NCBI GenBank assembly: GCA_016931115.1
Contig: JAFGFM010000083.1
Span: 1-35,437, forward strand
Reading direction: 5' to 3'
Length of the DNA stretch: 35,437 nt
Origin: Deltaproteobacteria bacterium
GTDB lineage: Bacteria > Desulfobacterota > DSM-4660 > Desulfatiglandales > HGW-15
In this document: piece after piece, positions 17,527 to 35,414 of the stretch
How the letters are laid out: each line of letters opens with the position of its first letter
How positions within the stretch are numbered: position 1 is the first letter of the stretch
Made by a program: the position numbers and the translations under genes
Notes under the pieces: generated by a model
Seen by the model: the letters and a program-made list of their open reading frames with translations, nothing else
What the model was told of the DNA's origin: nothing
Database searches by the model: none

Positions 17527-17555
17527 TTGACATCAAACTATCTGTCAGCTATAAA
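17527..17555 (+). promoter_or_regulatory. Sigma-70-type promoter of the TetR/acyl-CoA gene block
   Basis: TTGACA (17527-17532), a 17-base spacer and TATAAA (17550-17555) form a near-consensus housekeeping promoter. It lies 62 bases before the TetR gene and reads into the plus-strand block. Its -10 box abuts a perfect palindrome, so strong but repressible transcription is expected. Confidence 0.8.
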
Positions 17556-17568
17556 CCGAACGTTCGGT
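17555..17568. promoter_or_regulatory. Palindromic operator, probable TetR-family binding site
   Basis: ACCGAACGTTCGGT is a perfect 14-bp palindrome that begins at the last base of the -10 box and covers the likely transcription start. Its position 49 bases before a TetR-family gene suggests autorepression and control of the downstream genes, with release probably by an acyl-CoA. I saw no second full copy in the window. Confidence 0.75.
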
Positions 17569-17617
17569 AAAGTTAATTTCCAGGGTAAATATATGCCGGT
17601 TTCAGCAGGAATGGGAA

Positions 17618-18181
17618 ATGAATAAAAAAGAGCAGATACTTCAGGAAATAGCTGAATTGTTTTATGTGAACGGATATGAGAAGACATCCATAAGGGATAT
17701 CTCAAATGCCCTCAATATCAGCAAGCCCGGTCTTTATTATCATTTCACCAACAAGCAGGAGATGCTCTTTGATATGATCTATGACTTCATCGAGGGCACC
17801 AACAAGTATCTATTCAATGAATTATCTACCCTTAAAACCCCTGAAGAAAAGCTCCTCTGCATAATAATAAATCATATAGAATCATTTATTAAATACCCGG
17901 CCAGGATGAGGGTGCTTGTTTATGAGGCCCACTCCCTGGAAGATGACTATTACCAGAAGTTCAAGCAGAAACAGCGTGAATACATTGCTGTTATCAGGGA
18001 GATCCTTCAGGAAATAATGGAAAGGCATGACTCAAGAAGGAATATAAATGTTGTAACATTTACCCTTCTTGGTATGCTCAACTGGATTATACAGTGGTAT
18101 GAGCCCAAGGGAGTAGTATCGCCTGGTGAGCTCGCAGAGGAGATGTACACCTTTTTTATTAATGGCTTAAAGAATAGATAA
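17618..18181 (+). CDS. TetR-family transcriptional repressor
   Basis: A 187-aa regulator. The N-terminal helix-turn-helix is clear: EQILQEIAELFYVNGYEKTSIRDISNALNISKPGLYYHFTNKQEMLFDMI. The C-terminal ligand domain (about 60-187) is all-helical and is similar in style to regulators of fatty-acid degradation. It lies first in the block, directly behind a strong promoter with a palindromic operator, and 17 bases before an acyl-CoA ligase. It therefore probably represses the block until a CoA-thioester or the free acid binds. An AGGA-containing ribosome site precedes ATG 17618. MftR-like function is possible from context but cannot be shown. Confidence 0.92.
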   Translation: MNKKEQILQEIAELFYVNGYEKTSIRDISNALNISKPGLYYHFTNKQEMLFDMIYDFIEGTNKYLFNELSTLKTPEEKLLCIIINHIESFIKYPARMRVLVYEAHSLEDDYYQKFKQKQREYIAVIREILQEIMERHDSRRNINVVTFTLLGMLNWIIQWYEPKGVVSPGELAEEMYTFFINGLKNR

Positions 18182-18198
18182 ATTAATAAGGATATTTT

Positions 18199-19998
18199 AT
18201 GGAACAGTGGACACTACCAAAGGTCTTTTACGAACAGCTTAACAGGATAAGCAACAGGACATTTCTGATATATAAAAAGGATGCAAAGTGGCAGAACGTT
18301 TCATGGGCCGAGGTTGGTGAAAAGGTGATGAACCTTTCAATTGGGCTTATGAAGCTTGGAGTAAAAAAGGGTGACCGTGTTTCAGTAATCTCAGAAACCA
18401 GGCCTGATTATGCATACACAGTAACCGCCATTGCTAATGCGGGGGCCATTTTCACCGGGATATACCAGACAAACAGCCCCAGGGAATGCGCCCATGTGAT
18501 CAATGATTCAGGGGCAAAGATAGTTTTTGCAGAAAACAGGGCGCAGTGTGAGAAGATATTAAAGGCGGCGGAAAACTGCCCCCATATAGAAAAGATAATA
18601 GTATTTGATGGCTTTTCTCCTGTGGAAGACCCGCGTGTTATCAGCCTCGCTGCTCTTTATGCACTTGGTAAGGTGGAATATGAGAAAAGTGGCGACAAAG
18701 AATATCTTGAAAGGCTACATGATGTAAAGCCTGAGGATGTAACCGCTATTATTTATACATCAGGCACAACAGGGCCACCAAAGGGTGTTATGGATACAAA
18801 CCGCGGAATACTAATGAACCTGCGGGAATATACCAAGTTTTTCCCAGTAGATGAAACAGACAGGGGCCTCTCTTTTCTCCCAATGGCACATGCGTTAGAG
18901 CTCAGGAACGGCCACTGGTTCCACATAACCTTTGGTATTGAACAGGTATATGCAGAGGGGATGCGGCAGCTCTTTGACAATGTGCGCGAGATGGGGCCTA
19001 CATTCTTTTTTACAACGCCCAGGTTTTTTGAAAAACATCATAATATTATCTCGGCCGAGATAGAAAAGGCCTCACCATTCAGGAAAAGGATAATTAAATG
19101 GTGCCTGAAGGCTGGCGCCAGGTACAATGATGATTCATGGAATGTAAAGGGAAGCTCTCCGGATATTTTTACATCTCTTTCATATGCCCTTGCAAAGAGG
19201 CTCTTTATAAACGATGTTCGTGAAAAGGTGGGTAGAAAACTGAGGTATGGCGGGGTGGGAGGCGCACCCATGACTGCCGAAATGCTCAATTTTTTCAGGT
19301 CATGCGGGGTACCCCTTTATGAAGGATATGGGCTTACAGAGGGGTGCGGTCAACTGGCAATTAACAGGCCGGGCGTTTTTAAACTTGGTACAGTCGGAAA
19401 GCCTCTTGATGGTATAGAGGTAAAACTTAAAGATGATGGCGAGATAGTTGCCAGGGGCTGGCTCAGTACGCCAGGTTACTGGAATAATGCGAAGGCTACA
19501 GAAGAGCTCTATGAGGGCGGCTGGCTCAATACAGGAGACATCGGCACCTTTGATGCGGATGGTTTTCTGAAGATAACCGGCAGGAAAAAGGAGATACTCA
19601 TTACCTCCGGCGGGAAAAATGTATCACCATCCTATATTGAAAACATCATTAAACTGAGCCCCTATATCAGCCAGGTTGTTGTGTTCGGCGAAGGCAAGGA
19701 TTATCTTGTTGCCCTTCTTACCCTTAACCAGGAAGAGGTGAAAAGATACGCCGAAAAGAATAATATCGCATACAGGGATTATGCTGACCTCATTACCAAA
19801 AAAGAGATTATTGATCTTATTCAAAAGGAGGTTGATTATCAGAACAGGGAGGTTGCAAAGGTTGAGCAGATAAAGAGGTTTACAATTCTGAAGGATGAGT
19901 TCAGCCAGGAGCGTGAAGAGGTAACACCCACATTTAAGATCAAAAGAAATAATATTACTGAGCGGTATAAGGATTTGGTGGCAAGGATGTATGAATAA
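18199..19998 (+). CDS. Long-chain-type acyl-CoA synthetase (AMP-forming)
   Basis: A 599-aa ANL-superfamily ligase, a normal length for long-chain acyl-CoA synthetases. The P-loop-like motif IIYTSGTTGPPKGVM, the YEGYGLTEGCG motif, TGDIGTFDADGFLKITGRKKEILITSGGKNVSP, and a C-terminal PTFKIKRNNI (catalytic Lys) are all present. It activates a carboxylic acid with ATP and CoA, giving AMP and pyrophosphate, and would feed the following beta-oxidation-like enzymes. The TetR gene ends 17 bases upstream and AAGGATATT precedes ATG 18199. By context the substrate is a branched or cyclic acid rather than a simple fatty acid, which is inference. Confidence 0.92.
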   Translation: MEQWTLPKVFYEQLNRISNRTFLIYKKDAKWQNVSWAEVGEKVMNLSIGLMKLGVKKGDRVSVISETRPDYAYTVTAIANAGAIFTGIYQTNSPRECAHVINDSGAKIVFAENRAQCEKILKAAENCPHIEKIIVFDGFSPVEDPRVISLAALYALGKVEYEKSGDKEYLERLHDVKPEDVTAIIYTSGTTGPPKGVMDTNRGILMNLREYTKFFPVDETDRGLSFLPMAHALELRNGHWFHITFGIEQVYAEGMRQLFDNVREMGPTFFFTTPRFFEKHHNIISAEIEKASPFRKRIIKWCLKAGARYNDDSWNVKGSSPDIFTSLSYALAKRLFINDVREKVGRKLRYGGVGGAPMTAEMLNFFRSCGVPLYEGYGLTEGCGQLAINRPGVFKLGTVGKPLDGIEVKLKDDGEIVARGWLSTPGYWNNAKATEELYEGGWLNTGDIGTFDADGFLKITGRKKEILITSGGKNVSPSYIENIIKLSPYISQVVVFGEGKDYLVALLTLNQEEVKRYAEKNNIAYRDYADLITKKEIIDLIQKEVDYQNREVAKVEQIKRFTILKDEFSQEREEVTPTFKIKRNNITERYKDLVARMYE

Positions 19999-20004
19999 AA
20001 GATA

Positions 20005-20075: not shown

Positions 20076-20085
20076 ATTAAAAGAC

Positions 20086-20349: not shown

Positions 20350-21138
20350 ATGTCAAAATATGAAACTATTATTTATGAAGTGAAGGATCATGTGGCAAAG
20401 CTCACGCTTAACAGGCCTGATAAGCTTAATGCCATGACAGGCACCACATTCAGGGAGATAACCGAGGCGCTGAATGAGGCAGAAAGGGATAATGATGTAA
20501 GGGTGCTTGTTATTACAGGAAACGGCAGGGCCTTTTGCGCCGGTGTTGACCTCAAGTTTGCGGCAAAGGAGTTAACCAACCTGAAATCACAGACAGATTT
20601 TCTGACTGTCGGCAAGGAGCTCCTTGTAAAGATTGAGAGCCTGTCAAAACCGGTTATTGCAGCGATCAACGGCCTTGCACTGGCAGGCGGCTTTGAGATC
20701 CTTCTTGCATGTGACCTTGCAGTTGCAGTGGAAGATGCCATGATAGGCGACCAGCACATGAAGGTGGGGATGTTCGGCGCTGGCGGGACACCTTACAGGC
20801 TGCCTCTTTTAATAGGCATGAGGAGGGCAAAGGAGCTTCTTCTCACAGGTAAATGGATATCAGGTAAAGAAGCTGAAAGGATAGGGCTTGTTAACCGCGC
20901 TGTGCCTGCGAGTGAGTTTGAAAAGGCTGTAGAAGAGATGTCAGCAGAACTCGCAGACAAGAGCCCGACAGCTATGAGATTAACAAAATCATATATCAAT
21001 AAATCCATAATGTCTGATGCTGATGTAAGGCTTGAGGCTGCAATGCTTTCTGCAATAGTCAATGATACATCAGAGGATCATAATGAGGCGCTCAAGGCAT
21101 TTGGCGAAAAGAGAAAGCCGGAGTTTACGGGGAGATAA
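20350..21138 (+). CDS. Enoyl-CoA hydratase/isomerase (crotonase) family protein, atypical active site
   Basis: A 262-aa crotonase of usual length. CoA/oxyanion-hole motifs are present (GRAFCAGVDLKF, NGLALAGGFEILLACDLAVA). In rat enoyl-CoA hydratase Glu144 and Glu164 do catalysis. Here the first is kept (Glu116), but the second, exactly 20 residues on, is His136 (IGDQHMKVGMFGAGG). The enzyme may therefore be an isomerase, hydrolase or C-C lyase rather than a classical hydratase. GGAGGAAAAT precedes ATG 20350. It follows the ligase after a repeat-filled gap and precedes the racemase-like gene. Confidence 0.88.
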   Translation: MSKYETIIYEVKDHVAKLTLNRPDKLNAMTGTTFREITEALNEAERDNDVRVLVITGNGRAFCAGVDLKFAAKELTNLKSQTDFLTVGKELLVKIESLSKPVIAAINGLALAGGFEILLACDLAVAVEDAMIGDQHMKVGMFGAGGTPYRLPLLIGMRRAKELLLTGKWISGKEAERIGLVNRAVPASEFEKAVEEMSAELADKSPTAMRLTKSYINKSIMSDADVRLEAAMLSAIVNDTSEDHNEALKAFGEKRKPEFTGR

Positions 21139-21229: not shown

Positions 21230-21262
21230 GGATAATTATTGGTAAAATATTTGGAAAAAAAT

Positions 21263-22492
21263 ATGCAGTCAAATAATAAAGAAAATCTACAGGCTTTGTC
21301 TGGCTTAACCGTCCTTGACCTCAGCAGGTTTGCGCCGGGCCCTTTCTGTACAGGGATATTAGGCGATATGGGGGCAGATATAATCAAGATAGAAGAGGCG
21401 GGCAGGCCATCTGGAAGACGCGCCGAGAATGGAAAGGGGAAAGGTATGCCAGAGGTCAGGGAGTTTGCACCGCCTGATTCTCCATATGACCCCTCAAACA
21501 GAAATAAGAGAAGCATAGGTATAAACCTTAAAAGTGATGCGGGTCGGGAGATCTTTTACAGGCTTGCAAAAAAGGCCGATATTGTTGTTGAGGGGTTCAG
21601 GCCCGGCGTTACTGACAGGCTTGGCATAGGCTATGAAAAACTCAGGGAAATAAACAGGCGGATCATATACTGTGCAATAACAGGTTATGGCCAGGACGGC
21701 CCCTACAAATTTCTGCCAGGCCATGATGTAAACTATATATCACAGGCAGGTTATCTCGCTATTTTAAAGGAACCCAGGCTCCCCGGTAATCTTATCGGTG
21801 ATATTGCAGGCGGCGGTATGCAGGCGGTTATTGGCATCCTTGCTGCTGTTATCGCAAGGGCGAAAACAGGTGAAGGGCAGTTTGTGGATATTTCAATCAC
21901 AGATGGTGTAATAGCTCAGCTTGGTCCATACTTTGCGGCTTACTCCATGAACAAAAAGATGCCTGATGAGATAGACTTGGTAAGTACCGGTACAGTGCCT
22001 TTTTACAATCTTTATAGAACAAAAGATGGTAAGATGCTGGGCCTGGGCTGCTCAGAGCCCTGGTTTTATGTGAATCTGTGCAAGGCCATGGGTTGCGAGG
22101 AGATGATTCCTTATCAAGGCGAGGTTGAAAAATATGAAGAGATAACCGAAAGATTCTCTAAAATATTTCTTACAAAGACAAGGGATGAATGGTTTGATAT
22201 CCTCACAAAATCTGATATTGCTGTAAGTAAAGTGCTCTCATTTGATGAACTTGCAGAGGACCCTCAGATTAAACACAGGGATATGATAGTTGAGCTGGAT
22301 CATCCGGAACTGGGCAAGGTAAAACAGGCAGGTATCCCAGTAAAGCTCTCTGCCACTCCAGGGAGCATAAGGAAGTTTGCCCCTAAGCGGGGAGAGGATG
22401 CGGTTAATATCCTTTTAGAAACAGGATATAGTAAAGAGGAAATAGAAAAACTTGAAAAGGATGATGTGATTTATACCGGGGAAAAGGCATAG
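21263..22492 (+). CDS. CaiB/BaiF-family protein, probable alpha-methylacyl-CoA racemase type
   Basis: A 409-aa class III CoA-transferase-fold protein. The N-terminal LSGLTVLDLSRFAPGPFCTGILGDMGADIIKIE is typical. The family has two functional groups. Alpha-methylacyl-CoA racemases (MCR numbering His126, Asp156, Glu241) show GHDINY, GDFGGG and an E-P-x-F-Y segment. Here GHDVNY (His154), GDIAGGG (Asp180) and SEPWFY (Glu265) align with all three, so a racemase is likely. The CoA-transferase aspartate region (SITDGV) is also kept, so CoA transfer is not excluded. I chose ATG 21263; the frame reaches a TTG at 21239 inside repeat-adjacent sequence. A racemase fits degradation of a 2-methyl-branched acyl chain, such as a sterol side chain. 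Confidence 0.8.
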   Translation: MQSNNKENLQALSGLTVLDLSRFAPGPFCTGILGDMGADIIKIEEAGRPSGRRAENGKGKGMPEVREFAPPDSPYDPSNRNKRSIGINLKSDAGREIFYRLAKKADIVVEGFRPGVTDRLGIGYEKLREINRRIIYCAITGYGQDGPYKFLPGHDVNYISQAGYLAILKEPRLPGNLIGDIAGGGMQAVIGILAAVIARAKTGEGQFVDISITDGVIAQLGPYFAAYSMNKKMPDEIDLVSTGTVPFYNLYRTKDGKMLGLGCSEPWFYVNLCKAMGCEEMIPYQGEVEKYEEITERFSKIFLTKTRDEWFDILTKSDIAVSKVLSFDELAEDPQIKHRDMIVELDHPELGKVKQAGIPVKLSATPGSIRKFAPKRGEDAVNILLETGYSKEEIEKLEKDDVIYTGEKA

Positions 22493-22651: not shown

Positions 22652-23074
22652 ATGGATAAAAAACGTATACCAGTACAGGAAGGACTATTTATAGAGGCTG
22701 ATCCCGGAACCGGGAAATCGTACCTGATCGGAAACAAGTGCAAAAAATGCGGCCTTACAGCATTTCCAAAGACCCCGGTCTGCCCGAGGTGTCAGATTCA
22801 GGATACCATGGAAGAAACCAAATTTGAAGGCAAGGGAACCTTAGACAGTTACAGCATTGTACAGGCGGCTCTGCCCGGATTTCAGCAGCCCTCTATCCAG
22901 GCATATATCAACCTTGATAATGGCCCCAAGATGTGGTCACTGGTTACCGGCTGCGAACCAACTGAAGGCTCCCTTAAACTTGGTATGAAGATGGAGATGG
23001 TCATAGACAAGATAAGGGATGACGAAGAGGGTAATGAACTGATCAGTTATCAATTTAAACCGGCCGGGAAATAA
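22652..23074 (+). CDS. DUF35 zinc-ribbon/OB-fold protein, thiolase partner
   Basis: A 140-aa protein with a rubredoxin-like zinc ribbon (Cys30, Cys33, Cys44, Cys47) followed by an OB-fold (GKGTLDSYSIVQAALPGFQQPSIQAYINLDNGP...). Proteins of this kind pair with thiolase-like enzymes next door, as in the Ltp2/ChsH2 steroid aldolase and in acetoacetyl-CoA-type complexes. Its stop is 10 bases before the thiolase gene, so complex formation is very likely. GGAGAACAAT precedes ATG 22652. The zinc ribbon is probably structural, the OB-fold a CoA-binding or interaction surface. Confidence 0.9.
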   Translation: MDKKRIPVQEGLFIEADPGTGKSYLIGNKCKKCGLTAFPKTPVCPRCQIQDTMEETKFEGKGTLDSYSIVQAALPGFQQPSIQAYINLDNGPKMWSLVTGCEPTEGSLKLGMKMEMVIDKIRDDEEGNELISYQFKPAGK

Positions 23075-23084: not shown

Positions 23085-24245
23085 ATGAGAGATGTATCAA
23101 TAATTGGGGTCGGGATGACCCGTTTTGGCAAGTTTGAAGATCGTGACATGAAGGACCTTGGCCGTGAGGCAGTATGGACAGCCCTGAATGATGCAGGTGT
23201 CGGTATAAAAGATATTCAAGTTGCATACGTTGCAAATGCAGTGGGTCAGCAGCTCACCGAACTCAAGGGAACAATAGGTCAGCATGTCCTGACATCAGCC
23301 GGTATCTTCGGGATACCGGTAATTAATGTGGAAAATGCCTGTACAGGCGGCTCCACTTCTCTGAGGGGAGCCTATTTGGAGGTCGCCTCAGGAAATGCAG
23401 ATGTTGCCCTTGCAGTCGGTGTTGAAAAGCTCTTCTGCGGAGATTCAGCAAAATCGGCCCAGACAATGGCTGCCGGTACGATCTATGCGAAATTCGGTTT
23501 CATGTTTGTTGCCCTCTATGCGCTTCAGCTTAAAAAATGGATGGCAGCATCAGGCGCAACCAAGCTGCACTTTGCAAAGGTGGCGGCAAAGAATAAATAT
23601 AATGGTTCTCTTAACCCTTATGCCCAGTTCCAGAAGGCAATGACAGTCGAGCAGATACTGGAGTCACGTGTTGTTGCAGAGCCTCTGACCCAGTTCATGT
23701 GTTCCACAATGGCGGATGGCGCAGCCGCGGCAATCGTATGCAGCAGCGATATCGCTAAAAAGATATCCCAAAAATACCCTATTCAGATAGCCGCATGTGA
23801 ACTTGTATCTGGTACATATAATATACCGGGCGAGGAGCATGAAGAGATAACCACAAGGGCAGCCTTAAAGGCATATGAAAAGGCAGGAATAGGCCCGGAG
23901 GATGTTCAGGTGGTTGAGGTGCATGATGCTATGTCTCCGGCAGAACTGAGGATGTATGAAGAGCTGCATCTCTGTAAACCGGGTGAGGCAGGTATGATGA
24001 TAGATGAAGGTCATACCACACTGACAGGCAGGATACCTGTTAACCCGAGCGGAGGCCTTGCTGCAAAGGGTCACCCCATATCCGCGACAGGCCTGGCCCA
24101 GGTATATGAGGTTGTTACCCAGATGAGGGGTGAGGCAGGAAAGAGACAGGTAACCAATAATCCCAAGGTAGGGCTTGTTGAAAATGCGGGCGGCTGGACA
24201 ATGGATGATAATGCGGCCTGCGCGGTTACCATACTGAAGAAATAG
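23085..24245 (+). CDS. Thiolase-family (SCP-x-like) acyl-CoA acyltransferase or lyase
   Basis: A 386-aa protein of the SCP-x thiolase group. The nucleophile is probably Cys86 in VENACTGGSTSLRGAY. NPSGGLAAKGHPISATGLAQV carries the conserved histidine. The second, proton-shuttling cysteine of classical thiolases (CxGGG near the C-terminus) is absent: the segment reads VENAGGWTMDD. SCP-x-like and Ltp2-like proteins share this lack, so the reaction could be thiolytic cleavage or a retro-aldol split, with the DUF35 protein as partner. AAGGAGGAGATC precedes ATG 23085. The role fits chain shortening of the CoA-ester pathway encoded around it. Confidence 0.88.
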   Translation: MRDVSIIGVGMTRFGKFEDRDMKDLGREAVWTALNDAGVGIKDIQVAYVANAVGQQLTELKGTIGQHVLTSAGIFGIPVINVENACTGGSTSLRGAYLEVASGNADVALAVGVEKLFCGDSAKSAQTMAAGTIYAKFGFMFVALYALQLKKWMAASGATKLHFAKVAAKNKYNGSLNPYAQFQKAMTVEQILESRVVAEPLTQFMCSTMADGAAAAIVCSSDIAKKISQKYPIQIAACELVSGTYNIPGEEHEEITTRAALKAYEKAGIGPEDVQVVEVHDAMSPAELRMYEELHLCKPGEAGMMIDEGHTTLTGRIPVNPSGGLAAKGHPISATGLAQVYEVVTQMRGEAGKRQVTNNPKVGLVENAGGWTMDDNAACAVTILKK

Positions 24246-24316: not shown

Positions 24317-24366
24317 TGATGGCCTGTGTATAATATTTTTAAATGTTAAATTGTGTGGAGGGAAAA

Positions 24367-25218
24367 ATGGAGATTAAAAAAGTGGGAATAGTCGGTTGCG
24401 GTATTATGGGGTGCGGGATTGCCCAGGTATGTGCGCAGTCTGGCTACGATGTAATGGTAATGGATACCAAGAAGGAATATCTGGATAAAGGTCTTGCCAC
24501 AATAGATAAGGTGCTTGCAAGGTCTGTGGAAAAGGAGAGGATCACTGCCGATGAAAAGAGCGCTATCCAGGCAAGGATCAAGGGGACACTCACACTGGAT
24601 GATTTCAAGGATGTTGACTATGTTGTTGAGGCGGTTATCGAAGACCTGACAGTCAAACAGGATGTATTTAAGAAACTTGATAAGGTTTGTCAGCCCCACA
24701 CCATCCTTGCCTCAAATACCTCGACCATAAGTGTTATCAATATTGCAGCTGCAACCAACAGGCCAGACAAGGTAATCGGCACACATTTTTCAAACCCTGT
24801 ACCTCTCATGAAGGTGGTTGAGGTTATCAATGCCATCTCTACAACAGAAGAGACAACAAACATCACCAGGAAATTTCTGGAATCAATAGATAAGACAATG
24901 GTTGTATCAAAGGATGTGCCGGGCTTTCTTTCAAACAGGATTCTAACGCCATTCCTCTTAAATGCAGTGCGTATGGTAGAGGCAGGTGTTGGTACAAAGG
25001 AGGATATAGATACACTGATTACCCAGGGTCTCCGCCATCCAATGGGGCCTCTTACACTTCTTGATCTGATTGGTATTGATACAGTATATCGCGGCGCAAT
25101 GACTATCTATGAAGAGATTAAAGACCCTCAGTACCTTCCACCCACACTGATGAAACAAATGGTTATTGCCGGGTGGCATGGAAGAAAGACAGGCAAGGGG
25201 TTTTACGAGTATAAATAA
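24367..25218 (+). CDS. 3-hydroxyacyl-CoA dehydrogenase (3-hydroxybutyryl-CoA dehydrogenase type)
   Basis: A 283-aa protein of standard length. The NAD-binding motif GCGIMGCGIAQVCAQSGYDV starts at residue 8. The segment ASNTSTISV and the catalytic GTHFSNPVPLMKVVEV (His with downstream Asn/Glu dyad partners) are clear, as is DVPGFLSNRI at the C-terminal domain boundary. It oxidises an L-3-hydroxyacyl-CoA to the 3-ketoacyl-CoA for the thiolase. I chose ATG 24367 with GGAGG seven bases upstream; the frame reaches ATG 24343 without a ribosome site. It lies between the thiolase and the BaiE-like dehydratase. Confidence 0.93.
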   Translation: MEIKKVGIVGCGIMGCGIAQVCAQSGYDVMVMDTKKEYLDKGLATIDKVLARSVEKERITADEKSAIQARIKGTLTLDDFKDVDYVVEAVIEDLTVKQDVFKKLDKVCQPHTILASNTSTISVINIAAATNRPDKVIGTHFSNPVPLMKVVEVINAISTTEETTNITRKFLESIDKTMVVSKDVPGFLSNRILTPFLLNAVRMVEAGVGTKEDIDTLITQGLRHPMGPLTLLDLIGIDTVYRGAMTIYEEIKDPQYLPPTLMKQMVIAGWHGRKTGKGFYEYK

Positions 25219-26055: not shown

Positions 26056-26199
26056 ATGAAAGAACAGGAAAAACAGGTTGTAAAAATCTCTGATACAACA
26101 GGTTGCGAAACCGGAAAGACAAAGGAAGATGATATCTTCAAAACCCAGGAAATCAAGATTGAGGAAATGGCAATAGACGGTATATGCGGGGTATACTAA
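26056..26199 (+). CDS. mftA: Mycofactocin precursor peptide MftA
   Basis: A 47-aa peptide too short for usual ORF cut-offs. It is charged and Lys/Glu-rich and ends IDGICGVY before a TAA. The C-terminal (I/V)DG-x-CGVY motif is the hallmark of MftA. In known systems MftC decarboxylates the last Tyr and crosslinks it to the preceding Val; a peptidase then frees the Val-Tyr residue, which becomes the redox-active core. Both the terminal Val-Tyr and the Cys-Gly before it are intact here. GAGG lies 10 bases before ATG 26056. mftB and mftC follow on the same strand, but after an unusually long 258-base gap. Confidence 0.93.
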   Translation: MKEQEKQVVKISDTTGCETGKTKEDDIFKTQEIKIEEMAIDGICGVY

Positions 26200-26346: not shown

Positions 26347-26423
26347 TCACACAAAGACACGAAGCCACAAAGAAAAGGGTTTTACTTTTTTTAAAATCTT
26401 TGTGTCTTTGCGGCTTCGTGTGA
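26347..26423. repeat. Fold-back repeat with 7-bp periodicity between mftA and mftB
   Basis: Two 27-base arms, 26347-26373 and 26397-26423, are inverted copies with about five mismatches. The arms share short units such as CACAAAG and ACACGAA spaced by 7, and the mismatches look like exchanged heptamers rather than random changes. The stem could separate mftA expression from mftB. Confidence 0.7.
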
Positions 26424-26718: not shown

Positions 26719-27733
26719 AATGGCAAAAAAGGGGCTTCGTGCCCCTGTAAATGTTACATGGGAGATTACACTCAAATGCAACCTGCACTGTGTTCACTGC
26801 CTTTCCGGTTCAGGTGAGGCATCAAAGGATGAATTGACCACATCTGAATGCATGAGGCTCATTGATGAACTGTCAGCCATAAAGGTCTTTCAGGTCAATA
26901 TCGGTGGAGGTGAGCCCTTTATCAGGGAGGATTTTCTTGATCTCCTTGATTACAGCCATAAAAAGGGCCTTGTTACATGTGTGAGCACAAACGGCACACT
27001 GATTGATAACACTATTGCCAGACGGCTTGCAAAAATGGAGATGCTTTACCTTCAGGTCAGCCTGGACGGTGTTGATGAGGCGACAAACGACACCATTCGT
27101 GGTAAAGGCACATACAGAAAGATAATTAACGCAATTGAAACCCTCACAGCCAATAATGTAAAGTTCAGCATCAATACAGTCCTCACGCGCACCAACTTTG
27201 AACAGCTTGAAAGCCTGCGGGATATGGCAGGGAAATATGGCTCAGAACTTCGTGTTTCACGTTTCAGGCCTTCTGGCAGGGGAAAGGCCAGCAAGGCCGA
27301 TTTAGGCCCCACAGCCGAACAGCTTGAATACTTTGCTGCATGGCTTGAAGGACATGATCTTGTGAAGACAGGTGATTCTTTCTTCTGCCTCACCTCGGAT
27401 CACAGGAGGGAAAAGGGGCTTGACATGTGCGGGGCAGCAAAGATGACATGCTGCGTCTCTCCAGGCGGTAATGTTTATCCATGCGCCTTTATGCAGGAGC
27501 CGCCTTTTTATTCAGGCAATGTGAGGAGAGAATCGATCAAGAAGATATGGGATAATTCATTAATATTTAAACAGTTCAGGAATATCAATGTGAAATCCTG
27601 CATGACGTGTTACCGCTTTGAGGTATGCAGGGGCGGTTGCCCTGCAATGGCATATCATACATATCACGATATCAATATGCCTGACCCTGAGTGTCTTGTT
27701 AACCTGAAGGCTGGGACAGGGATTACCCTGTAG
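26708..27733 (+). CDS. mftC: Mycofactocin radical SAM maturase MftC
   Basis: A 341-aa radical SAM protein with a SPASM extension. CNLHCVHC (Cys24, Cys28, Cys31) binds the SAM cluster, followed by the NIGGGEPFIREDF glycine-rich strand. The C-terminal part has CGAAKMTCCVSPGGNVYPCAF and KSCMTCYRFEVCRGGCPA, the auxiliary-cluster cysteines. In characterised systems MftC decarboxylates and crosslinks MftA's terminal Val-Tyr. I chose the TTG at 26708, which overlaps the mftB stop and has GGGGTGAT at the right distance; an ATG at 26720 is possible. The OYE gene follows after 11 bases. Confidence 0.95.
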   Translation: MSAEMAKKGLRAPVNVTWEITLKCNLHCVHCLSGSGEASKDELTTSECMRLIDELSAIKVFQVNIGGGEPFIREDFLDLLDYSHKKGLVTCVSTNGTLIDNTIARRLAKMEMLYLQVSLDGVDEATNDTIRGKGTYRKIINAIETLTANNVKFSINTVLTRTNFEQLESLRDMAGKYGSELRVSRFRPSGRGKASKADLGPTAEQLEYFAAWLEGHDLVKTGDSFFCLTSDHRREKGLDMCGAAKMTCCVSPGGNVYPCAFMQEPPFYSGNVRRESIKKIWDNSLIFKQFRNINVKSCMTCYRFEVCRGGCPAMAYHTYHDINMPDPECLVNLKAGTGITL

Positions 27734-27744: not shown

Positions 27745-29694
27745 ATGTTTGACCGTTTATTTACGCCTCTTGCTCTCGGAAAGACCATCATACCAAACAG
27801 GGTATGTTTTCTGGCCCACAGGACAAATTTCTCAAAACGCGGTGAACTGAACGAAAAGCACCTGGCATATTATACAAGAAGGGCAAAGGGCGGGTGCGGC
27901 CTTATTATCCTTGGCGAACTCTGCATTCACCCTGATAACAGGCCCTGGGGATCCCTTGTAAATTTTTATGATCCATCAGTTATAAGGCAGTTCAGAAAAC
28001 TTACTAATGCTATCCATTCACATGGGTCGCTCATCTTTGCCCAGCTCATTCACCACGGGTTTCAGAGTAGCGGCGCCATAACAAGAAAAGAGGTCTGGGG
28101 CCCGTCAGCAAATTCCGATATAAGCTTCGGGGAGGTATCAAAACCCATGGAGATCGAGGACATCCATGAGGTGATAGAGGCCTTTGCAAATGCAGCATTG
28201 ATTGCAGGGGAAGCTGGCTTTGATGGCGTTGAGATAGACATGGGCGCAGAATCACTCATAAGGCAGTTTCTCTCTCCACTTACAAATCACCGTGAAGATG
28301 AATATGGCGGGAATCTCAACAACAGGATGAGGTTTGCCACAGAGGTTCTTGAAAAGATAAAGTCAAAAGCAGGAGAGGATTTTGCTATTGGCGTCAGGCT
28401 CTGTGTTGATGAAAAGTTCTGGGGGGCCATTACACCTGAAGAATCAAAACAGTACGCTAAAACCTTTGAGGAAAGGGATCTTGCCTCATACATAAATACA
28501 ACAGTAGGCACATATTACAGCCTTTATATGTCCATGGCATCCATGCATACACCGCCAGGTTTTGCAATAGAGGCCGCTGAACTTTTAAAAAAGAATGTCA
28601 GGATGCCGGTTATTGCAAGTCATCAGATAACCTCTCCAAATATGGCGGAGGATATCCTTGAAAAAGGGCAGGCAGATGCAGTCGGTTTTATCAGGAACCT
28701 GATATGCGACCCGGATATGATCAAAAAGGCAAAGGAAGGCCGAATTAAAGATATACGATATTGCGTAAGGGACAACAAGGGGTGCATTGGCAGGGTTAAC
28801 AATAAAAAGCAGATAGGCTGCATACAGAACCCGGAGGTAGGGTTTGAAGGAAACATAAAAACTGCTGTGCCAGGAAAAGACTTTATACGAAAAAGGGTTG
28901 TTATAATCGGCGGAGGGCCTGCAGGGCTTGAGGCGGCAAGGAGAGCAGCAGAAAGAGGCCATGATGTAAAGGTATTTGAAAAGGAGAAACAGACGGGAGG
29001 TCAGATAAATCTGATAAAAAAAAGACCCAGGCGTCAGGGCATGGGGGCGATTATTACATATCTCATGCGCATGGCAGAGAACCTTAAAATCCCCATTATT
29101 ACCGGAATCGAAGTAACTGTGGAGATGGTGCTAAAGGAAAGCCCTGATGCTGTTATTGTGGCAACCGGAAGCTATCCCCGTGTGAAACCGGTGCCCGGTA
29201 ACTATGCCCCACCATTTGTTCTTAATGTATGGGAAGTGCTTCAGGGTGAATATCCGATAGGCGAAAATATTCTTTTCATAGATGAAAACGGCGGGCACCA
29301 TGCGGCTGCCACTGTTGAATACCTTGCTGACCAGGGAAAAAAAGTCCACATGGTTACCAGCGATCTTTTTATCGGTATAGAGCTTTCACCCCTTGGTGAT
29401 CTTTCCATTACAAGGCAGAGGTTGCTCCAGAAGGGGGTTACATTTGCATCAGACCTGCGCATAGAAGAGATCATCGGCATAAAGGCAAGATTTACTGATA
29501 TCTACACCAACATGCCAGTGATACTTGAGGGGTATGATACAATAATCCTTGATATGGGAAACAGGGCTGATGACAGATTATACATGGGGTTAAAGGGTAA
29601 AATAAAGGAGCTTTATCGCATCGGAGATTGTGTTGCGCCAAGGGGCATTGATATGGCCTTTCTTGAGGCAAGAAGGGTGGGGGAGATCATATGA
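27745..29694 (+). CDS. Mycofactocin-associated FadH/OYE-family oxidoreductase, first copy
   Basis: A 649-aa protein with the layout of 2,4-dienoyl-CoA reductase and of BaiCD/BaiH: an FMN barrel (about 1-335), an Fe-S segment, and a NAD(P)/FAD domain with VVIIGGGPAGLEAARRAAERGHDVKVFEKE. Two things are odd. The Fe-S motif, normally C-x2-C-x3-C-x11-C, reads Cys340, Asp343, Cys347, Cys359, so the second cysteine is Asp. The barrel motif usually written EIHGAHGYL reads EIDMGAESL, so both histidines and the tyrosine are replaced (Asp165, Ala168, Ser170). It is probably a dehydrogenase or reductase of an enone or CoA-enone. ATG 27745 has GAGGG upstream, and the stop overlaps the next gene by 4 bases. 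Confidence 0.9.
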   Translation: MFDRLFTPLALGKTIIPNRVCFLAHRTNFSKRGELNEKHLAYYTRRAKGGCGLIILGELCIHPDNRPWGSLVNFYDPSVIRQFRKLTNAIHSHGSLIFAQLIHHGFQSSGAITRKEVWGPSANSDISFGEVSKPMEIEDIHEVIEAFANAALIAGEAGFDGVEIDMGAESLIRQFLSPLTNHREDEYGGNLNNRMRFATEVLEKIKSKAGEDFAIGVRLCVDEKFWGAITPEESKQYAKTFEERDLASYINTTVGTYYSLYMSMASMHTPPGFAIEAAELLKKNVRMPVIASHQITSPNMAEDILEKGQADAVGFIRNLICDPDMIKKAKEGRIKDIRYCVRDNKGCIGRVNNKKQIGCIQNPEVGFEGNIKTAVPGKDFIRKRVVIIGGGPAGLEAARRAAERGHDVKVFEKEKQTGGQINLIKKRPRRQGMGAIITYLMRMAENLKIPIITGIEVTVEMVLKESPDAVIVATGSYPRVKPVPGNYAPPFVLNVWEVLQGEYPIGENILFIDENGGHHAAATVEYLADQGKKVHMVTSDLFIGIELSPLGDLSITRQRLLQKGVTFASDLRIEEIIGIKARFTDIYTNMPVILEGYDTIILDMGNRADDRLYMGLKGKIKELYRIGDCVAPRGIDMAFLEARRVGEII

Positions 29695-31649
29695 GTGAAT
29701 TTAAATATCTCTTCAGCCCGCTCAAGATAGGGAGTGTTGTTGTCCCTAACCGCATCCATTTTGCCGCACATATGACTAACTTCGGTGAGGATCAGCGTAT
29801 AAGCGACAGGCACATATTCTACTATACCGAAAGGGCAAAAGGGGGTTGCGGCCTTATAACAACCGAGGAACTCACAGTTCATCCCTCCGATCATGCCTAT
29901 GACAGGCTTGTGGATGCATTTAAGCCTGAGGTGGTTCAAGGGTATAAAAGACTTACCTACGCAATACATCAGTATGATACAAAGATATTTGCGCAGCTCA
30001 ACCATAATGGGATGCAGGCAGACGGCACCATATCAAGGCTCCCTGTATGGGGGCCATCTCCGGGGTCTGATCCCCTTTTCAGGGAGACATGCAAGGAGAT
30101 GGAGATAGCGGATATAAAGGAGTGCTGTGAATTCTATGCCAGAAGCGCTGTCTATGCTGTTGAAGGGGGCTTTGATGGAATAGAATTACAGCTTGGTCAC
30201 AGCTCGCTTATCAGGCAGTTTTTATCCCCTGCCACAAACCATAGAGAGGATGAATATGGAGGCAGCTTTGAAAACCGCATGAGGTTCTGTCTTGAGGTGA
30301 TAGATTCTGTGAGAAGGGCGGTGGGTGAGGGCTTTACACTGGGCATAAGGCTTAATGCAGATGAGATGCACCCCAGGGGTGGAATTAACCTTGAGGAGGC
30401 AAAAAGGATAGCTGTGCGTGTTGAAGAGGCAGGCCAGATCAACTTTATGGACCTGAGCCTGGGTACATTTCATAATCTCTTTCTGGTTGAAGGCTCCATG
30501 CATACACCGCTAGCCTACACAGTGCCTCTTGCATCGGCCATTCGATCGGTTATCTCACTCCCTGTCTTCTGCACCAACAGGATAAATGACCCGCACCTGG
30601 CAGAGAATATCCTTGCAGATGGTCAGGCGGATATGATCGGCATGGTAAGGGCGTTAATCTGCGACCCTGAACTTCCCAACAAGGCAATGGAGGGGAGATT
30701 TGAAGATATCAGACAGTGCATTGCATGCAATCAGGGGTGCATTGCACGTATGGGACTTGGCTATTCACTTGGATGCCTGCAAAATCCTGCGGTGGGTCTT
30801 GAAGAGACTATGGGAATCGGTAAGCTAAAGAGATGTGAAAAGCAGAAAAAGGTAGTTATAGTTGGCGGAGGCCCTGCCGGGCTTGAGGCGGCAAGGATCG
30901 CTGCCCTTCGTAAACACCAGGTTGTACTTTTTGAAAAGAATGAAGAGCCCGGGGGCCAGAATCTTATTGCAGGAAAGGCAGCAGGAAGGCAGGAGATTAC
31001 AGGTGTTACAAGGTGGTTACTGAGCCAGGTCAATAAGCTTGAAATAGATATAAGGCTTGGAGCGGAGGCAACCGCTGAAACAGTGCTGGCTGAGAATCCG
31101 GATGCTGTAATTATCGCTACCGGCTCAATGCCCAAGGAGCATCCCTTTCAGGGTGAATACTCTTCCCCTCAGGTGGTTAGTACTGTGCAGGTATTAAAGG
31201 AAGAGGTTGAGGTTGGCAAAAAGGTGCTTCTTATAGATAATGATGGCCACCATCAGGCCACAGGCACAGCAGAATACCTGGCTGACAGGGGAAAAGATGT
31301 GCATATAATCACCTCATCCCTTTTTACTGGCGGTAACCTTGGCCCCTTGCAGGATCTCTTCTTAACAAGAAAAAGACTTGCGGAAAAGGGTGTAACCTTC
31401 ACACCTGATATAGCTGTGCTTGAGATACAGGGCACAGTTGTGAAGGGGCTTCATGTATATTCAAATCAGATGATGGATTTTACAGGGTATGACACCATTG
31501 TGCTTGCGGTTGGCAATACCTCATGCGACCAGTTGTATTTTGCACTTAAGGGCAAGGTAAAAGAGCTTTACCGGGCAGGGGACTGTGTTGCCCCCAGAAA
31601 AACAGACATGGCCATAGTAGAGGGCCACAGGCTAGGAAGGCAAGTTTGA
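29691..31649 (+). CDS. Mycofactocin-associated FadH/OYE-family oxidoreductase, second copy
   Basis: A 652-aa paralogue of the preceding protein with the same order: FMN barrel, Fe-S motif, NAD(P)/FAD domain (VVIVGGGPAGLEAARIAALRKHQVVLFEKNEEPGG). The four Fe-S cysteines are all present here (Cys343, Cys346, Cys350, Cys362, in QCIACNQGCI). The barrel motif reads ELQLGHSSL: one histidine is kept (His170), but the tyrosine position is Ser172. Two linked copies resemble the BaiCD/BaiH pair of bile-acid dehydroxylation, where each reduces or oxidises a different enone. The start (ATG 29691) overlaps the previous stop, and the stop overlaps etfA, so all three are translationally coupled. Confidence 0.92.
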   Translation: MSEFKYLFSPLKIGSVVVPNRIHFAAHMTNFGEDQRISDRHIFYYTERAKGGCGLITTEELTVHPSDHAYDRLVDAFKPEVVQGYKRLTYAIHQYDTKIFAQLNHNGMQADGTISRLPVWGPSPGSDPLFRETCKEMEIADIKECCEFYARSAVYAVEGGFDGIELQLGHSSLIRQFLSPATNHREDEYGGSFENRMRFCLEVIDSVRRAVGEGFTLGIRLNADEMHPRGGINLEEAKRIAVRVEEAGQINFMDLSLGTFHNLFLVEGSMHTPLAYTVPLASAIRSVISLPVFCTNRINDPHLAENILADGQADMIGMVRALICDPELPNKAMEGRFEDIRQCIACNQGCIARMGLGYSLGCLQNPAVGLEETMGIGKLKRCEKQKKVVIVGGGPAGLEAARIAALRKHQVVLFEKNEEPGGQNLIAGKAAGRQEITGVTRWLLSQVNKLEIDIRLGAEATAETVLAENPDAVIIATGSMPKEHPFQGEYSSPQVVSTVQVLKEEVEVGKKVLLIDNDGHHQATGTAEYLADRGKDVHIITSSLFTGGNLGPLQDLFLTRKRLAEKGVTFTPDIAVLEIQGTVVKGLHVYSNQMMDFTGYDTIVLAVGNTSCDQLYFALKGKVKELYRAGDCVAPRKTDMAIVEGHRLGRQV

Positions 31650-32653
31650 CAGTAAACAGAGACATATGGATACTCGCTACTCACACAGGTGATGCTGTTG
31701 ATGAGACCACCTTTGGCCTGATAGCAGAGGCAAGGGATATTATAAGCAGGGAAGGTGGAAGCGGCAGGGTGACTGCTGTAATCATGGGTATACCTGAAGA
31801 TGCTGCTTTTGCCTCATTAAAAAATGGTGGCGCTGACAGGATTATCCATATAAGGCATGAGTCTCTGAACAGGTATAATGGCGAGCTCTTTGCCAGTCTG
31901 TTATTTGATCTTGCTAATGGACGCAGTTTATCATGCATCCTTTTAGCCCATAATGAAGGGAGATCAGACCTTGCACCCAGGCTCTCTGCAATGATGAATA
32001 GCGCACTAATAACACGCGCAATGGCGATCAGTTTTGATAAAGAGAATAGAGCTGTTGCAATAAGGCCGGTATCAAACGGGTATCTTTTTGAAGAGGTGGT
32101 AATAAACACTGATAATCCTCCGGTTATTTCATATCTTCCATCAGTGTTAAGCGCTGTAAATCCTTATAAAGGGCCGGTAGATACACCTGTAGAGATAATA
32201 TCCCCGGAGATTGATGAGTGTGCCCTCAGTGCAAGGGTAATAAAGGTAATTAAATCAGCTCCTGAAAATCTATCAATAGAAGATGCGAGTATTGTTGTGG
32301 CAGGGGGCCGTGGAGCAGGCAAGGGCGATGCGTTTAATATTCTCCATGAGTTGGCAAGGGAGATAGGGGCATCGGTTGGCGGTACAAGGCCTGTGATTGA
32401 TTTACAGATATTACCATTTGAGAGGCAGATAGGCCAGACCGGTAAGACCATTGCGCCTGATCTTATAATTAATTGCGGTGTATCCGGGGCAAATGAGTAC
32501 AGCGCTGGCATGGAAAAGAGTAAGAATGTGATATCCATAAACAAAGACCCAAGGGCAAGGATATTCAGGTTTTCTGACCTTGGCGTTGTGGGTGATTTAA
32601 ATGAGATTGTTCCTCTTTTGATTGAGAGGGTAAGGGAAGTTAAGGAAGAGTAA
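31646..32653 (+). CDS. etfA: Electron transfer flavoprotein alpha subunit, without adjacent beta subunit
   Basis: A 335-aa EtfA. The FAD-binding C-terminal half is very clear: PFERQIGQTGKTIAPDL, NCGVSGANEYSAGM, and INKDPRARIFRFSDLGVVGDL. The N-terminal half is the usual EtfA domain I. In most operons EtfB lies directly beside EtfA, but no EtfB is visible in the window. The start is a TTG at 31646 that overlaps the previous stop, with AGGAAGG upstream. It probably receives electrons from acyl-CoA or OYE-type steps and passes them to the membrane Fe-S protein two genes on. Confidence 0.93.
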   Translation: MTVNRDIWILATHTGDAVDETTFGLIAEARDIISREGGSGRVTAVIMGIPEDAAFASLKNGGADRIIHIRHESLNRYNGELFASLLFDLANGRSLSCILLAHNEGRSDLAPRLSAMMNSALITRAMAISFDKENRAVAIRPVSNGYLFEEVVINTDNPPVISYLPSVLSAVNPYKGPVDTPVEIISPEIDECALSARVIKVIKSAPENLSIEDASIVVAGGRGAGKGDAFNILHELAREIGASVGGTRPVIDLQILPFERQIGQTGKTIAPDLIINCGVSGANEYSAGMEKSKNVISINKDPRARIFRFSDLGVVGDLNEIVPLLIERVREVKEE

Positions 32654-32691
32654 ATAGGGTTCGAGGGAAAGACTCTAAGTTTAATGATGCA

Positions 32692-32741
32692 GGGTGGGAT
32701 TTTATATCCCACCTGATAAAGGTCGGGAGTAAATCCCGACC
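32692..32741. repeat. Two consecutive hairpins after etfA
   Basis: GGTGGGAT (32693-32700) pairs with ATCCCACC (32706-32713), and GGTCGGGA (32721-32728) pairs with TCCCGACC (32734-32741), each with a 5-base loop. Neither is followed by a T-run, so they look more like REP-type repeats or RNA-stabilising stems than terminators. Confidence 0.6.
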
Positions 32742-32770
32742 CTACGAAAAACAAAGATATCTTATATGCT

Positions 32771-33538
32771 ATGAATAATATTTGTTTAAAAAAATTCTAT
32801 TTACTGATTGCTATTGTATGGCTTATGCCTTGTAGCATTTTTGCCTATGAAATGAGTGACTGTATCTCATGTCACAGTGAAAATCCTGAAAGCGGTATAC
32901 CTCAAATATTAATTGCAGAGTTCAAGGCATCCATCCATGGGTCTATGATGACATGCGCTGAATGTCATTCCTACATAGAAGAGGGTCATGAGGCCGGTGA
33001 TGTGGATGAAAAGGTAAACTGCAATATGTGTCACCAGCAGGCGAATCTGCACGGGGCAACAGCAAATGCAGGATCAAGGCCTGAATGTTATACATGCCAC
33101 ACAAAACACAGCATTCTTCCCTCGCATTTTGAAAAATCCACAGTTAACAGGGCGCACCTTGAAGAGAGATGCAGCGAGTGTCATGAAGCACAGTATGGCA
33201 AAAGCGTTTATATGAAGGGTTTTACATCTTTCAGGATCAGGTCGCATAAAAAAGAGGATTTTAGCAGGGAGTTTAATGAGACAAACTGTATTGGCTGTCA
33301 TCAGGGTATGGCAATACATGGAACAGCAGAAAAGATTTCAGCGGATGACTGCGCGAAGTGTCACATGAAGGACAATAAAAATGCCATGATGGGCAGGTTT
33401 CATGCTGCTGCCAATTCCGGTCTGTCAATCAATGGTCTTTCTATAATCACCCAGATATTATTACTTGGTGTGCTAATCCTTGTTATAAGGTTTATCGTAA
33501 AAGCCCCATGGAAACAGTGCAAAAGGGGGAAATTTTAA
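32771..33538 (+). CDS. Membrane-anchored seven-haem cytochrome c
   Basis: A 255-aa exported protein. A signal peptide (about 1-25, ending CSIFA) is followed by seven CxxCH motifs: CISCH, CAECH, CNMCH, CYTCH, CSECH, CIGCH and CAKCH. A single membrane segment near the C-terminus (ITQILLLGVLILVIRFIV) anchors it, leaving a basic tail (KQCKRGKF) in the cytoplasm. Such proteins carry electrons between a membrane quinone or Fe-S enzyme and periplasmic acceptors. Its stop is one base before the next ATG, so it surely works with the HdrD-like protein. No named cytochrome family fits exactly. Confidence 0.9.
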   Translation: MNNICLKKFYLLIAIVWLMPCSIFAYEMSDCISCHSENPESGIPQILIAEFKASIHGSMMTCAECHSYIEEGHEAGDVDEKVNCNMCHQQANLHGATANAGSRPECYTCHTKHSILPSHFEKSTVNRAHLEERCSECHEAQYGKSVYMKGFTSFRIRSHKKEDFSREFNETNCIGCHQGMAIHGTAEKISADDCAKCHMKDNKNAMMGRFHAAANSGLSINGLSIITQILLLGVLILVIRFIVKAPWKQCKRGKF

Positions 33539-33539
33539 G

Positions 33540-35414
33540 ATGCTTACATCATTAGATCTTTTTCTCCTCTCCCTTGCCATTGTTATTATGGGCATTGGCT
33601 TTTCCCGGATATTCACCACCATACGTTCAGGCAGGCAGGAAAAATGTGAGAAGAAGAGGGGCTTTCTTATAGCCTATCTGCTTAACCATAAAACCATACT
33701 CAGGAAACCATTTGCTGGCATACTCCACATGGTGGTGTTCTGGGGATGTGTACTGCCTATAATCATCATTATACTGGCACAAACCTGGCTGATAATGCCC
33801 GGACTTTTATCATCCATAATCTCTGTGCTGCTTGATATTGTGGGTATACTGTTTCTTGCTGCCGCTATCATATTTTTTATAAGACGCTCAATATCAGAAG
33901 AGACACTCGGCCCAAAACTAAGCCGTTTACCCATTCTTATACTGATAATAATTCTCATTACCGGGTTTCTGGCTGAAGGCATAAGGCTTAGCATTGTTAA
34001 CCCTGAAAATATCTGGGTCTCTCCTGTTGGCTATTTGTTATCCTCCTTTTTGCCTGCATCACCTTTGTTGATGCAGATCATGATAAGGATACACCTTTAT
34101 TCAGTCATGCTTATGATAGCCCTTATCCCCTTTACCTTTTTTAGACACCTTATAATTTCTCCCCTGAACACAATTTGGAAAAAACAGGGTAACAGGGGAG
34201 AATTGAGGCCCGTGTTATCTGAAGATTCCCCTGGCGCAAACCATATCAGTGAATTTTCATGGAAGCAGCTCCTTGAGACTGAATCATGTGTTTCATGCGG
34301 AAGATGTGAAGAGAGCTGCCCTGCCTTTATCTCAGGGAAACCCCTTTCACCCAGGAAGATAGTAAGGGCAATCCATGAAATTGCCATATCAGGCAAAAAT
34401 ATATCTCTTGGTTCGCGTATCTCACCTGATGAGATATGGGCATGCACCACCTGCATGGCATGTGTGGAGGCATGCCCGGTCTATACGGTGCCGCTGGATA
34501 AGATAGTAGAATTGAGACGGCATCTCACCATGGGTAAAGGTGAACTGCCATTAGAGGCCCGTCCAATGATAAGGGCGCTTGAACTTTATGGAGATGTAAA
34601 CGGCAGGGGCGCATCTCACAGGGCGGACTGGGCAATGAACAGGGGGGTAAAGACGATTGGGCCGGATGAAAAAGAGGTTGAAATAGTTATCTGGACAGGC
34701 TGTTCAGGGGCCTTTCATCCCAGGTATCAGGATGTCTCAAGGGCGCTCGTCACCATACTCCAAAAGGCTGGCATTAACTTCAGGATACTGGGAGCAAATG
34801 AATTGTGCTGTGGTGACCCAGCCCGAAGGCTTGGAGATGAGGAGCTGTTTATAAGTTTAGCAAAGAAGAATCTTAAGACCTTAAGGGAGCATAATGTAAA
34901 CAGGATAATAACACTTTGCCCTCACTGTTTTAACACCCTTAAAAACGAATATCCGAAGATAGAAACTGAGAGTCTCCACAGGTTTGAGGTATTACATGCA
35001 ACTCAGTATGTGATGGGGCTCATAGAAAAAAATATTATTAACCCGGTCTATCCTCTTCAAAAAATGGTCACCCTGCATGACCCATGCTATCTTGGAAGGG
35101 CCAATAATATTTATGAACCTTTAAGGGGCATAATAAACAATATCCCCGGTGCAGAGATAAAAGAGCTTGAAAGATCCCGTGAAAAGGGCTTCTGCTGCGG
35201 TGGGGGCGGAGGCGGGATGTGGCTCCATGAACACCCTGGCAAACGAATAAATCTAATAAGGTCTGAAGAGATCGTTGAAAAGGGTATTGATATGGTGTGC
35301 ACCGCCTGCCCCTATTGCCAGACCATGATCAGCGATGGCATAAATGGGTTGGAGCTTGAAAGAGCGCCACAGGTGCTGGATATAATAGAGGTGTTAGAAC
35401 GGGCGTTGGGGTAA
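33540..35414 (+). CDS. Membrane HdrD/GlpC-like Fe-S oxidoreductase, probable ETF-quinone link
   Basis: A 624-aa protein. The N-terminal 215 or so residues hold about five hydrophobic segments resembling a NarI-type membrane domain, probably haem-b binding (HMVVFWG, IHLYSVMLMI). Two 4Fe-4S motifs follow, CVSCGRCEESCP and CTTCMACVEACP, and then two CCG-type segments as in HdrD (LCCGDPARRLG with CPHCFNTL; HDPCYLGR with FCCGGGGGGMW). This layout is that of proteins thought to move electrons from ETF to menaquinone in anaerobes, in reverse if oxidising acyl-CoA. It is next to etfA and the seven-haem cytochrome, which supports that role. A repeat begins just after the stop. Confidence 0.9.
   Translation: MLTSLDLFLLSLAIVIMGIGFSRIFTTIRSGRQEKCEKKRGFLIAYLLNHKTILRKPFAGILHMVVFWGCVLPIIIIILAQTWLIMPGLLSSIISVLLDIVGILFLAAAIIFFIRRSISEETLGPKLSRLPILILIIILITGFLAEGIRLSIVNPENIWVSPVGYLLSSFLPASPLLMQIMIRIHLYSVMLMIALIPFTFFRHLIISPLNTIWKKQGNRGELRPVLSEDSPGANHISEFSWKQLLETESCVSCGRCEESCPAFISGKPLSPRKIVRAIHEIAISGKNISLGSRISPDEIWACTTCMACVEACPVYTVPLDKIVELRRHLTMGKGELPLEARPMIRALELYGDVNGRGASHRADWAMNRGVKTIGPDEKEVEIVIWTGCSGAFHPRYQDVSRALVTILQKAGINFRILGANELCCGDPARRLGDEELFISLAKKNLKTLREHNVNRIITLCPHCFNTLKNEYPKIETESLHRFEVLHATQYVMGLIEKNIINPVYPLQKMVTLHDPCYLGRANNIYEPLRGIINNIPGAEIKELERSREKGFCCGGGGGGMWLHEHPGKRINLIRSEEIVEKGIDMVCTACPYCQTMISDGINGLELERAPQVLDIIEVLERALG

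Follow-up and report, generated by a model that had tools for sequence, protein, structure and literature searches.

Mycofactocin is a peptide-derived redox cofactor that has been studied almost only in mycobacteria. The window analyzed here is the entire 35,437-base contig JAFGFM010000083.1 of the genome of an uncultured deltaproteobacterium (Desulfobacterota; 5.18 Mb, 240 contigs, 98.5% complete), in which the mycofactocin genes mftA, mftB and mftC are followed by OYE2, a flavoprotein of the old yellow enzyme (OYE) type. The main new result is that OYE2 and the biosynthetic enzyme MftD are mutually exclusive: of 92 genomes and plasmids, not one has both. Judging from sequence comparison, OYE2, together with an electron transfer flavoprotein (ETF) and a membrane chain, seems to replace MftD. 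The exclusion singles out one enzyme, OYE2, as a candidate for both MftD-less synthesis and MftG-less reoxidation. If this holds, then in sulfate reducers, Geobacter relatives, Pelotomaculum, Thermoleophilia, Streptomyces and haloarchaea mycofactocin would be tied to menaquinone respiration by way of ETF and either EtfD or FixC.

Mutual exclusion of MftD and OYE2

The sample comprises 26 Actinomycetota genomes, 12 plasmids carrying mftC and 54 genomes of other groups. Among 396 Actinomycetota genomes, 73 have mftC, and the 26 are classical representatives of these. In twenty of them MftD exceeds its cut-off and OYE2 scores stay at 545 bits or less; in the other six, OYE2 reaches 764-958 bits and no MftD passes. 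A single-table test gives this distribution a probability of 4e-6, with kinship ignored. The plasmids repeat the pattern, with MftD in 4/12, OYE2 in 8/12 and both in 0/12. Outside these groups, MftD exceeds its cut-off in none of the 54 genomes (the window's own and 53 others), and OYE2 is present in 46. The MftD model has its positive control in the matches to 20 of the 26 Actinomycetota genomes plus both plasmids. On a careful MftC tree the two states interleave among Actinomycetota, with at least four switches on supported branches and seven on the best tree, and every switch is reciprocal: MftD goes out as OYE2 comes in, or the reverse.

Two Sphingopyxis plasmids (NZ_CP013345.1 and NZ_CP009430.1) carry an MftD-like sequence (52% over 71%) and no mftC match; this is probably another FMN dehydrogenase.

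Mycofactocin genes and the contig break

The MftA C-terminus, IDGICGVY, fits the [I/V]DG-x-CG[V/I]Y definition, and MftB and MftC exceed their curated cut-offs. A first-pass annotation of this DNA had reported mftD, mftE and mftF as absent, which is correct for the window; the window, though, is a whole contig, and mftF (350 bits, cut-off 280) is encoded on C202, another contig of this genome (4.6 kb), together with etfB and two SPASM radical SAM proteins, rSAM2 and rSAM3. It is very probable that the window's contig runs on into C202, because in G067, a genome of the same genus, a single contig carries TetR, mft, OYEa, OYE2, etfA, cytochrome, EtfD, etfB, rSAM2, mftF and rSAM3 in this order, and the full gene order is kept at 74-97% identity. 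The rightward extension advised earlier thus very probably recovers mftF and etfB. It yields neither of the other two genes: the best mftD match in the window's own genome reaches 29 bits (TIGR03966, cut-off 471), and mftE (TIGR03964) has no match there, in G067 or in a further genome, G024. Mycofactocin in deltaproteobacteria was recorded in 2011, when mftD and mftE were described as present in most but not all loci, and loci without either were noted (PMC3023750).

The rSAM pair (L055:1-933 and 2495-3595) flanks mftF in the window's clade; against the MftC model, with its cut-off of 265 bits, rSAM2 reaches 127. As a general MftD substitute the pair is ruled out, because loci of the FixC type described below have no rSAM2.

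OYE flavoproteins

The window encodes two OYEs, OYE2 and a divergent paralogue, OYEa, which had been read as BaiCD/BaiH-like oxidoreductases. On the mycofactocin OYE 2 model (TIGR03997, cut-off 793), OYE2 passes with 884 bits and OYEa falls just under at 741; on the BaiCD model (NF041087, cut-off 825), they score only 420 and 353 bits. By these profiles, neither is a Bai enzyme; both fall within or close to the OYE2 family of mycofactocin systems.

The fold family of OYE2 spans trimethylamine and histamine dehydrogenases and dienoyl-CoA reductases, and its solved relatives include trimethylamine dehydrogenase (TMADH), histamine dehydrogenase and 6-HPON amine oxidase. TMADH reduces ETF. Alignment with solved relatives shows that none of the mycofactocin OYEs examined over the site of the ene-reductase Tyr (FadH Y166, also in 2-naphthoyl-CoA reductase) has this residue. 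OYE2 retains a His (TMADH H172) found in 4/4 solved amine oxidases (TMADH, two histamine dehydrogenases and 6-HPON amine oxidase) and in 0/2 reductases. OYEa and its orthologues have the Fe-S motif C-x2-D-N-x2-C, with Asp for the second Cys, a feature also seen in some OYE2 proteins that are the only OYE of a FixC-type locus. The AlphaFold predictions for EtfD and OYE2 are of low confidence (pLDDT 63 and 60) and serve as a cross-check only.

From ETF to quinone

The ETF protein of the window is ETF-alpha. On the mycofactocin-associated ETF models NF038209 and TIGR04503 (cut-offs 240 and 200), the ETF subunits score 135 and 97 bits. The last gene, earlier called HdrD-like, encodes by homology an EtfD, an ETF:menaquinone oxidoreductase. 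Its protein combines a membrane part of six helices with two 4Fe-4S motifs (8/8 Cys present) and two five-Cys CCG sites (10/10 Cys present), and the gene adjoins those of ETF. Mycobacterium smegmatis EtfD (PDB 9ojn) matches it at 295 bits and is also its top Foldseek match. The membrane part, the 4Fe-4S and CCG sites and the place next to ETF genes recur in EtfD of mycobacteria (Rv0338c/MSMEG_0690); unlike those proteins, the window's EtfD is linked to mycofactocin genes and a seven-haem cytochrome, not to beta-oxidation alone. In mycobacteria, EtfD connects ETF with menaquinone (PMC13083937, PMC8593149). The cytochrome has seven CxxCH motifs, as do 9/9 homologues checked.

There is good evidence in gene content that electrons pass from OYE to ETF to quinone, because two non-homologous ETF:quinone oxidoreductases, FixC and EtfD, fill one slot. 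The first-pass proposal that ETF and a membrane Fe-S protein carry the electrons away is supported by the EtfD homology, the adjacent etfA and etfB, and FixC in the same position in other phyla.

Distribution of the OYE-ETF core

In the class, mftC is present in 7/85 genomes, and a GTDB contig scan finds mftC loci in Desulfobacterota, Bacillota, Actinomycetota and haloarchaea. Neighborhoods annotated by tblastn share a recurring core, mftA-mftB-mftC-OYE2-etfA-X-etfB-mftF, in Desulfobacterota, Bacillota, Thermoleophilia and Streptomyces; it is rearranged in haloarchaea, which have the same parts on the opposite strand. X is FixC (FixC/FixX) in Geobacter relatives, Pelotomaculum, Thermoleophilia and Streptomyces, and the seven-haem cytochrome plus EtfD in the window's clade. 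The OYE genes occupy mftD's place directly after mftC. Where enough sequence is available upstream of mftA, most relatives carry a zinc-dependent alcohol dehydrogenase (Zn-ADH) near the NDMA-dependent family.

The Streptomyces plasmid loci (e.g. NZ_CP102515) resemble the window in having mftABC, two OYEs, etfA, a quinone-reductase module, etfB and mftF, without mftD. They differ in carrying FixC/FixX for cytochrome and EtfD, in having mftE, and in a first OYE that is OYE1, not OYEa; the window's ETF subunits also stay under the mft_etfA/etfB cut-offs, in contrast to theirs. NCBI already names the OYE1/2 and ETF families of mycofactocin systems, and these plasmids carry the labels 'mycofactocin system FadH/OYE oxidoreductase 1/2' and 'mycofactocin-associated ETF'. 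With the classical mftABCDEF(G) cluster of mycobacteria, the window's locus shares mftA, mftB, mftC and mftF over or at the family definitions; in contrast to that cluster, no mftD, mftE or mftG was found, an OYE2 pair, ETF and EtfD are there instead, and MftC, at 373 bits, stays below the 506-675 of classical Actinomycetota. A literature search of incomplete coverage finds no tie of mycofactocin to ETF, and to old yellow enzyme only a coumarin-degradation study, so priority for the OYE-ETF finding is not certain.

Proposed mechanism and alternatives

MftD turns the intermediate AHDP into premycofactocin, and M. smegmatis lacking mftD produces no mycofactocin (PMC7491314), so MftD-less loci need another AHDP oxidase. 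OYE2 is proposed because it is the one enzyme that these loci consistently carry; that it performs this step, with or without a second role in mycofactocinol reoxidation, has slightly better than an even chance in our estimate. In this scheme, MftC plus a peptidase would make AHDP, OYE2 would convert the primary amine of AHDP, by oxidation, into premycofactocin's keto group, and MftF would glycosylate the product. Electrons would run from OYE2 through ETF and EtfD to menaquinone, with the seven-haem cytochrome as a possible side path. OYEa and the same ETF-EtfD line probably reoxidize reduced mycofactocin, and loci with two OYEs could split AHDP oxidation and mycofactocinol reoxidation between them.

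Reoxidation of mycofactocinol is the task of MftG elsewhere, yet approximately 25% of mftC genomes have no MftG, and its replacement in them is an open question (PMC11778925). OYE2, ETF and EtfD might do only this, feeding menaquinone, while another enzyme takes the MftD step. A complete ETF-to-quinone line suits catabolic flux more than cofactor synthesis, and MftG exceeds its cut-off only in five MftD-positive genomes and in no OYE2-positive one. Such a division of labor is nevertheless unlikely, if appreciable: the sharp exclusion is with MftD, many MftD-positive genomes having neither MftG over cut-off nor OYE2, and it is mftD's position that the OYE genes hold. Far less probable, indeed very improbable, is that mycofactocin serves a pathway for cyclic or sterol acids in which the OYEs act as BaiCD/BaiH-like dehydrogenases or enoate reductases. 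The block does look bai-like, with ligase, CaiB, SnoaL and two OYE-FeS flavoproteins, the general types found in the bai operon of gut Firmicutes. However, no member of the window passes a Bai model, the OYE scores are about half the BaiCD cut-off, the ene-reductase Tyr is missing, and OYE-ETF-EtfD stays with mft in genera without the CoA genes, as befits a mycofactocin module. The dehydratase once called BaiE-like matches other SnoaL proteins far better (118 against 40 bits), and the bile-acid/sterol link drawn from these genes is not supported.

Several observations weigh against OYE2 as the AHDP oxidase. Independent switches are few, with a sign test giving p 0.125 on four supported pairs, and sequence cannot tell the MftD role from the MftG role. 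TMADH Tyr169, Asp267 and Cys30 (the flavin link) are absent from OYE2, only His172 of the triad being kept, so amine-dehydrogenase chemistry is unproven; overall similarity of OYE2 peaks with 2-naphthoyl-CoA reductase and FadH. MftE is absent as well, with no peptidase identified. Streptomyces and haloarchaea have OYE-type loci too, which means that O2 avoidance is not the whole reason for them. Finally, the window's own genome yielded no mycofactocin-dependent dehydrogenase; the search there for iron-dependent alcohol dehydrogenases and short-chain dehydrogenases/reductases (SDRs) covered 0.59 of 5.18 Mb (~11%) and returned one iron-dependent enzyme at 32%.

Gene layout and the CoA cassette

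Sixteen genes without internal stops, from TetR through EtfD, lie on the plus strand at 17618-35414 (Table 1); from mftB to etfA, neighboring genes overlap or almost touch. Profiles confirm the earlier account of mftA-C in one plus-strand block with a ligase, CaiB, a DUF35/thiolase pair, a 3-hydroxyacyl-CoA dehydrogenase and a SnoaL-fold protein.

Table 1. Features of the mycofactocin locus and the adjoining CoA genes in the window
Feature	Position	Strand	Evidence or remark
TetR-family regulator (TetR_C_24), not MftR	17618..18181	+	MftR model 20 bits, cut-off 225
Acyl-CoA ligase (AMP-binding, FadD-like)	18199..19998	+	Profile matches
Enoyl-CoA hydratase (crotonase)	20350..21138	+	Profile matches
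CaiB-family type III CoA-transferase	21239..22492	+	PF02515; above no NCBIfam cut-off; TTG start uncertain
DUF35/ChsH2-type OB protein, thiolase partner	22652..23074	+	Profile matches
SCP2-type thiolase	23085..24245	+	Profile matches
3-Hydroxyacyl-CoA dehydrogenase	24343..25218	+	PRK07819 345 bits, cut-off 319
SnoaL_4 protein	25304..25969	+	Start shifted from 25166 to ATG 25304; PDB 8abt 118 bits, BaiE 40 bits
mftA, mycofactocin precursor, 47 aa, C-terminal ...IDGICGVY	26056..26199	+	
Inverted repeat between mftA and mftB	26350..26421	n/a	
mftB, RiPP recognition chaperone	26458..26718	+	TIGR03967 44.7 bits, cut-off 33
mftC, radical SAM maturase	26708..27733	+	TIGR03962 373.5 bits, cut-off 265
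OYEa, divergent OYE2 paralogue	27745..29694	+	Asp replaces second Fe-S Cys
OYE2 (OYEb), mycofactocin-system OYE family 2; proposed MftD substitute	29691..31649	+	TIGR03997 884 bits, cut-off 793
etfA, ETF alpha	31646..32653	+	
Seven-haem c-type cytochrome, C-terminal hydrophobic anchor	32771..33538	+	7 CxxCH
EtfD/EMO-type membrane Fe-S protein (ETF:menaquinone oxidoreductase homologue)	33540..35414	+	

The ligase, crotonase, 3-hydroxyacyl-CoA dehydrogenase and DUF35-thiolase pair make up a set that resembles beta-oxidation and lacks an acyl-CoA dehydrogenase. CaiB and SnoaL would fit branched or cyclic substrates and identify none. Next to mft, the full CoA set occurs in only two genomes of one genus, the window's, where it takes the place of the relatives' Zn-ADH, an enzyme that this genus does not have. 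The DUF35 protein is 95% identical within the genus and at most 49% identical elsewhere in the class, and the DUF35-thiolase pairs of other genera (33-49% identity) have other neighbors. What had been described as a fusion of mycofactocin to a CoA pathway is thus confined to this genus. The ligase-to-HdrD-like order does recur in its second genome; other relatives have the mycofactocin module without the CoA genes, usually with Zn-ADH upstream.

The CoA genes are best seen as a separate acyl-CoA degradation cassette, probably recruited beside the locus in one genus, which may supply reductant or only share regulation. A functional coupling, with one operon and cassette oxidation feeding mycofactocin, falls somewhat short of an even chance. 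The shared strand, gaps of ~100 bp or less from the 3-hydroxyacyl-CoA dehydrogenase gene to mftA, the order conserved at 74-97% identity in the second genome and the site otherwise held by Zn-ADH speak for it, as does the response of M. smegmatis MftR to long-chain acyl-CoA (PMC8728441). It is weakened by the restriction to one genus, by a 351-bp gap and by the lack of a mycofactocin-type dehydrogenase in the cassette. No Zn-ADH of the mycofactocin-partner type was found in the window's own genome, and an SDR of the window was rejected as a mycofactocin-dependent dehydrogenase (TIGR03971 154 bits, cut-off 300).

The 258-bp gap between mftA and mftB holds a near-perfect inverted repeat (26350-26421) that occurs once in the window. 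A viral scan turned up no relatives.

A second Desulfobacterota clade

A second Desulfobacterota mft clade (L074:8230-15445; similarly L075-L095 and L118) has neither mftD nor OYE2. Its loci carry larE-larB-larC, genes of nickel-pincer cofactor synthesis. They also encode an aldehyde:ferredoxin oxidoreductase and an SDR of the mycofactocin-coupled kind (536 bits, cut-off 385). Of the loci, 18/22 have LarC, as do 8/8 genomes with neither MftD nor OYE2. There may be at least three non-homologous ways to finish mycofactocin, namely MftD, a quinone-wired OYE2-ETF amine dehydrogenase and a nickel-pincer-dependent larE-larB-larC route, a tentative idea that we consider rather doubtful. Some Desulfobacterota genomes apparently hold both the OYE-ETF and the Lar type: loci L069 and L118 share one genome, and G098, G099, G101 and G106 are further cases.

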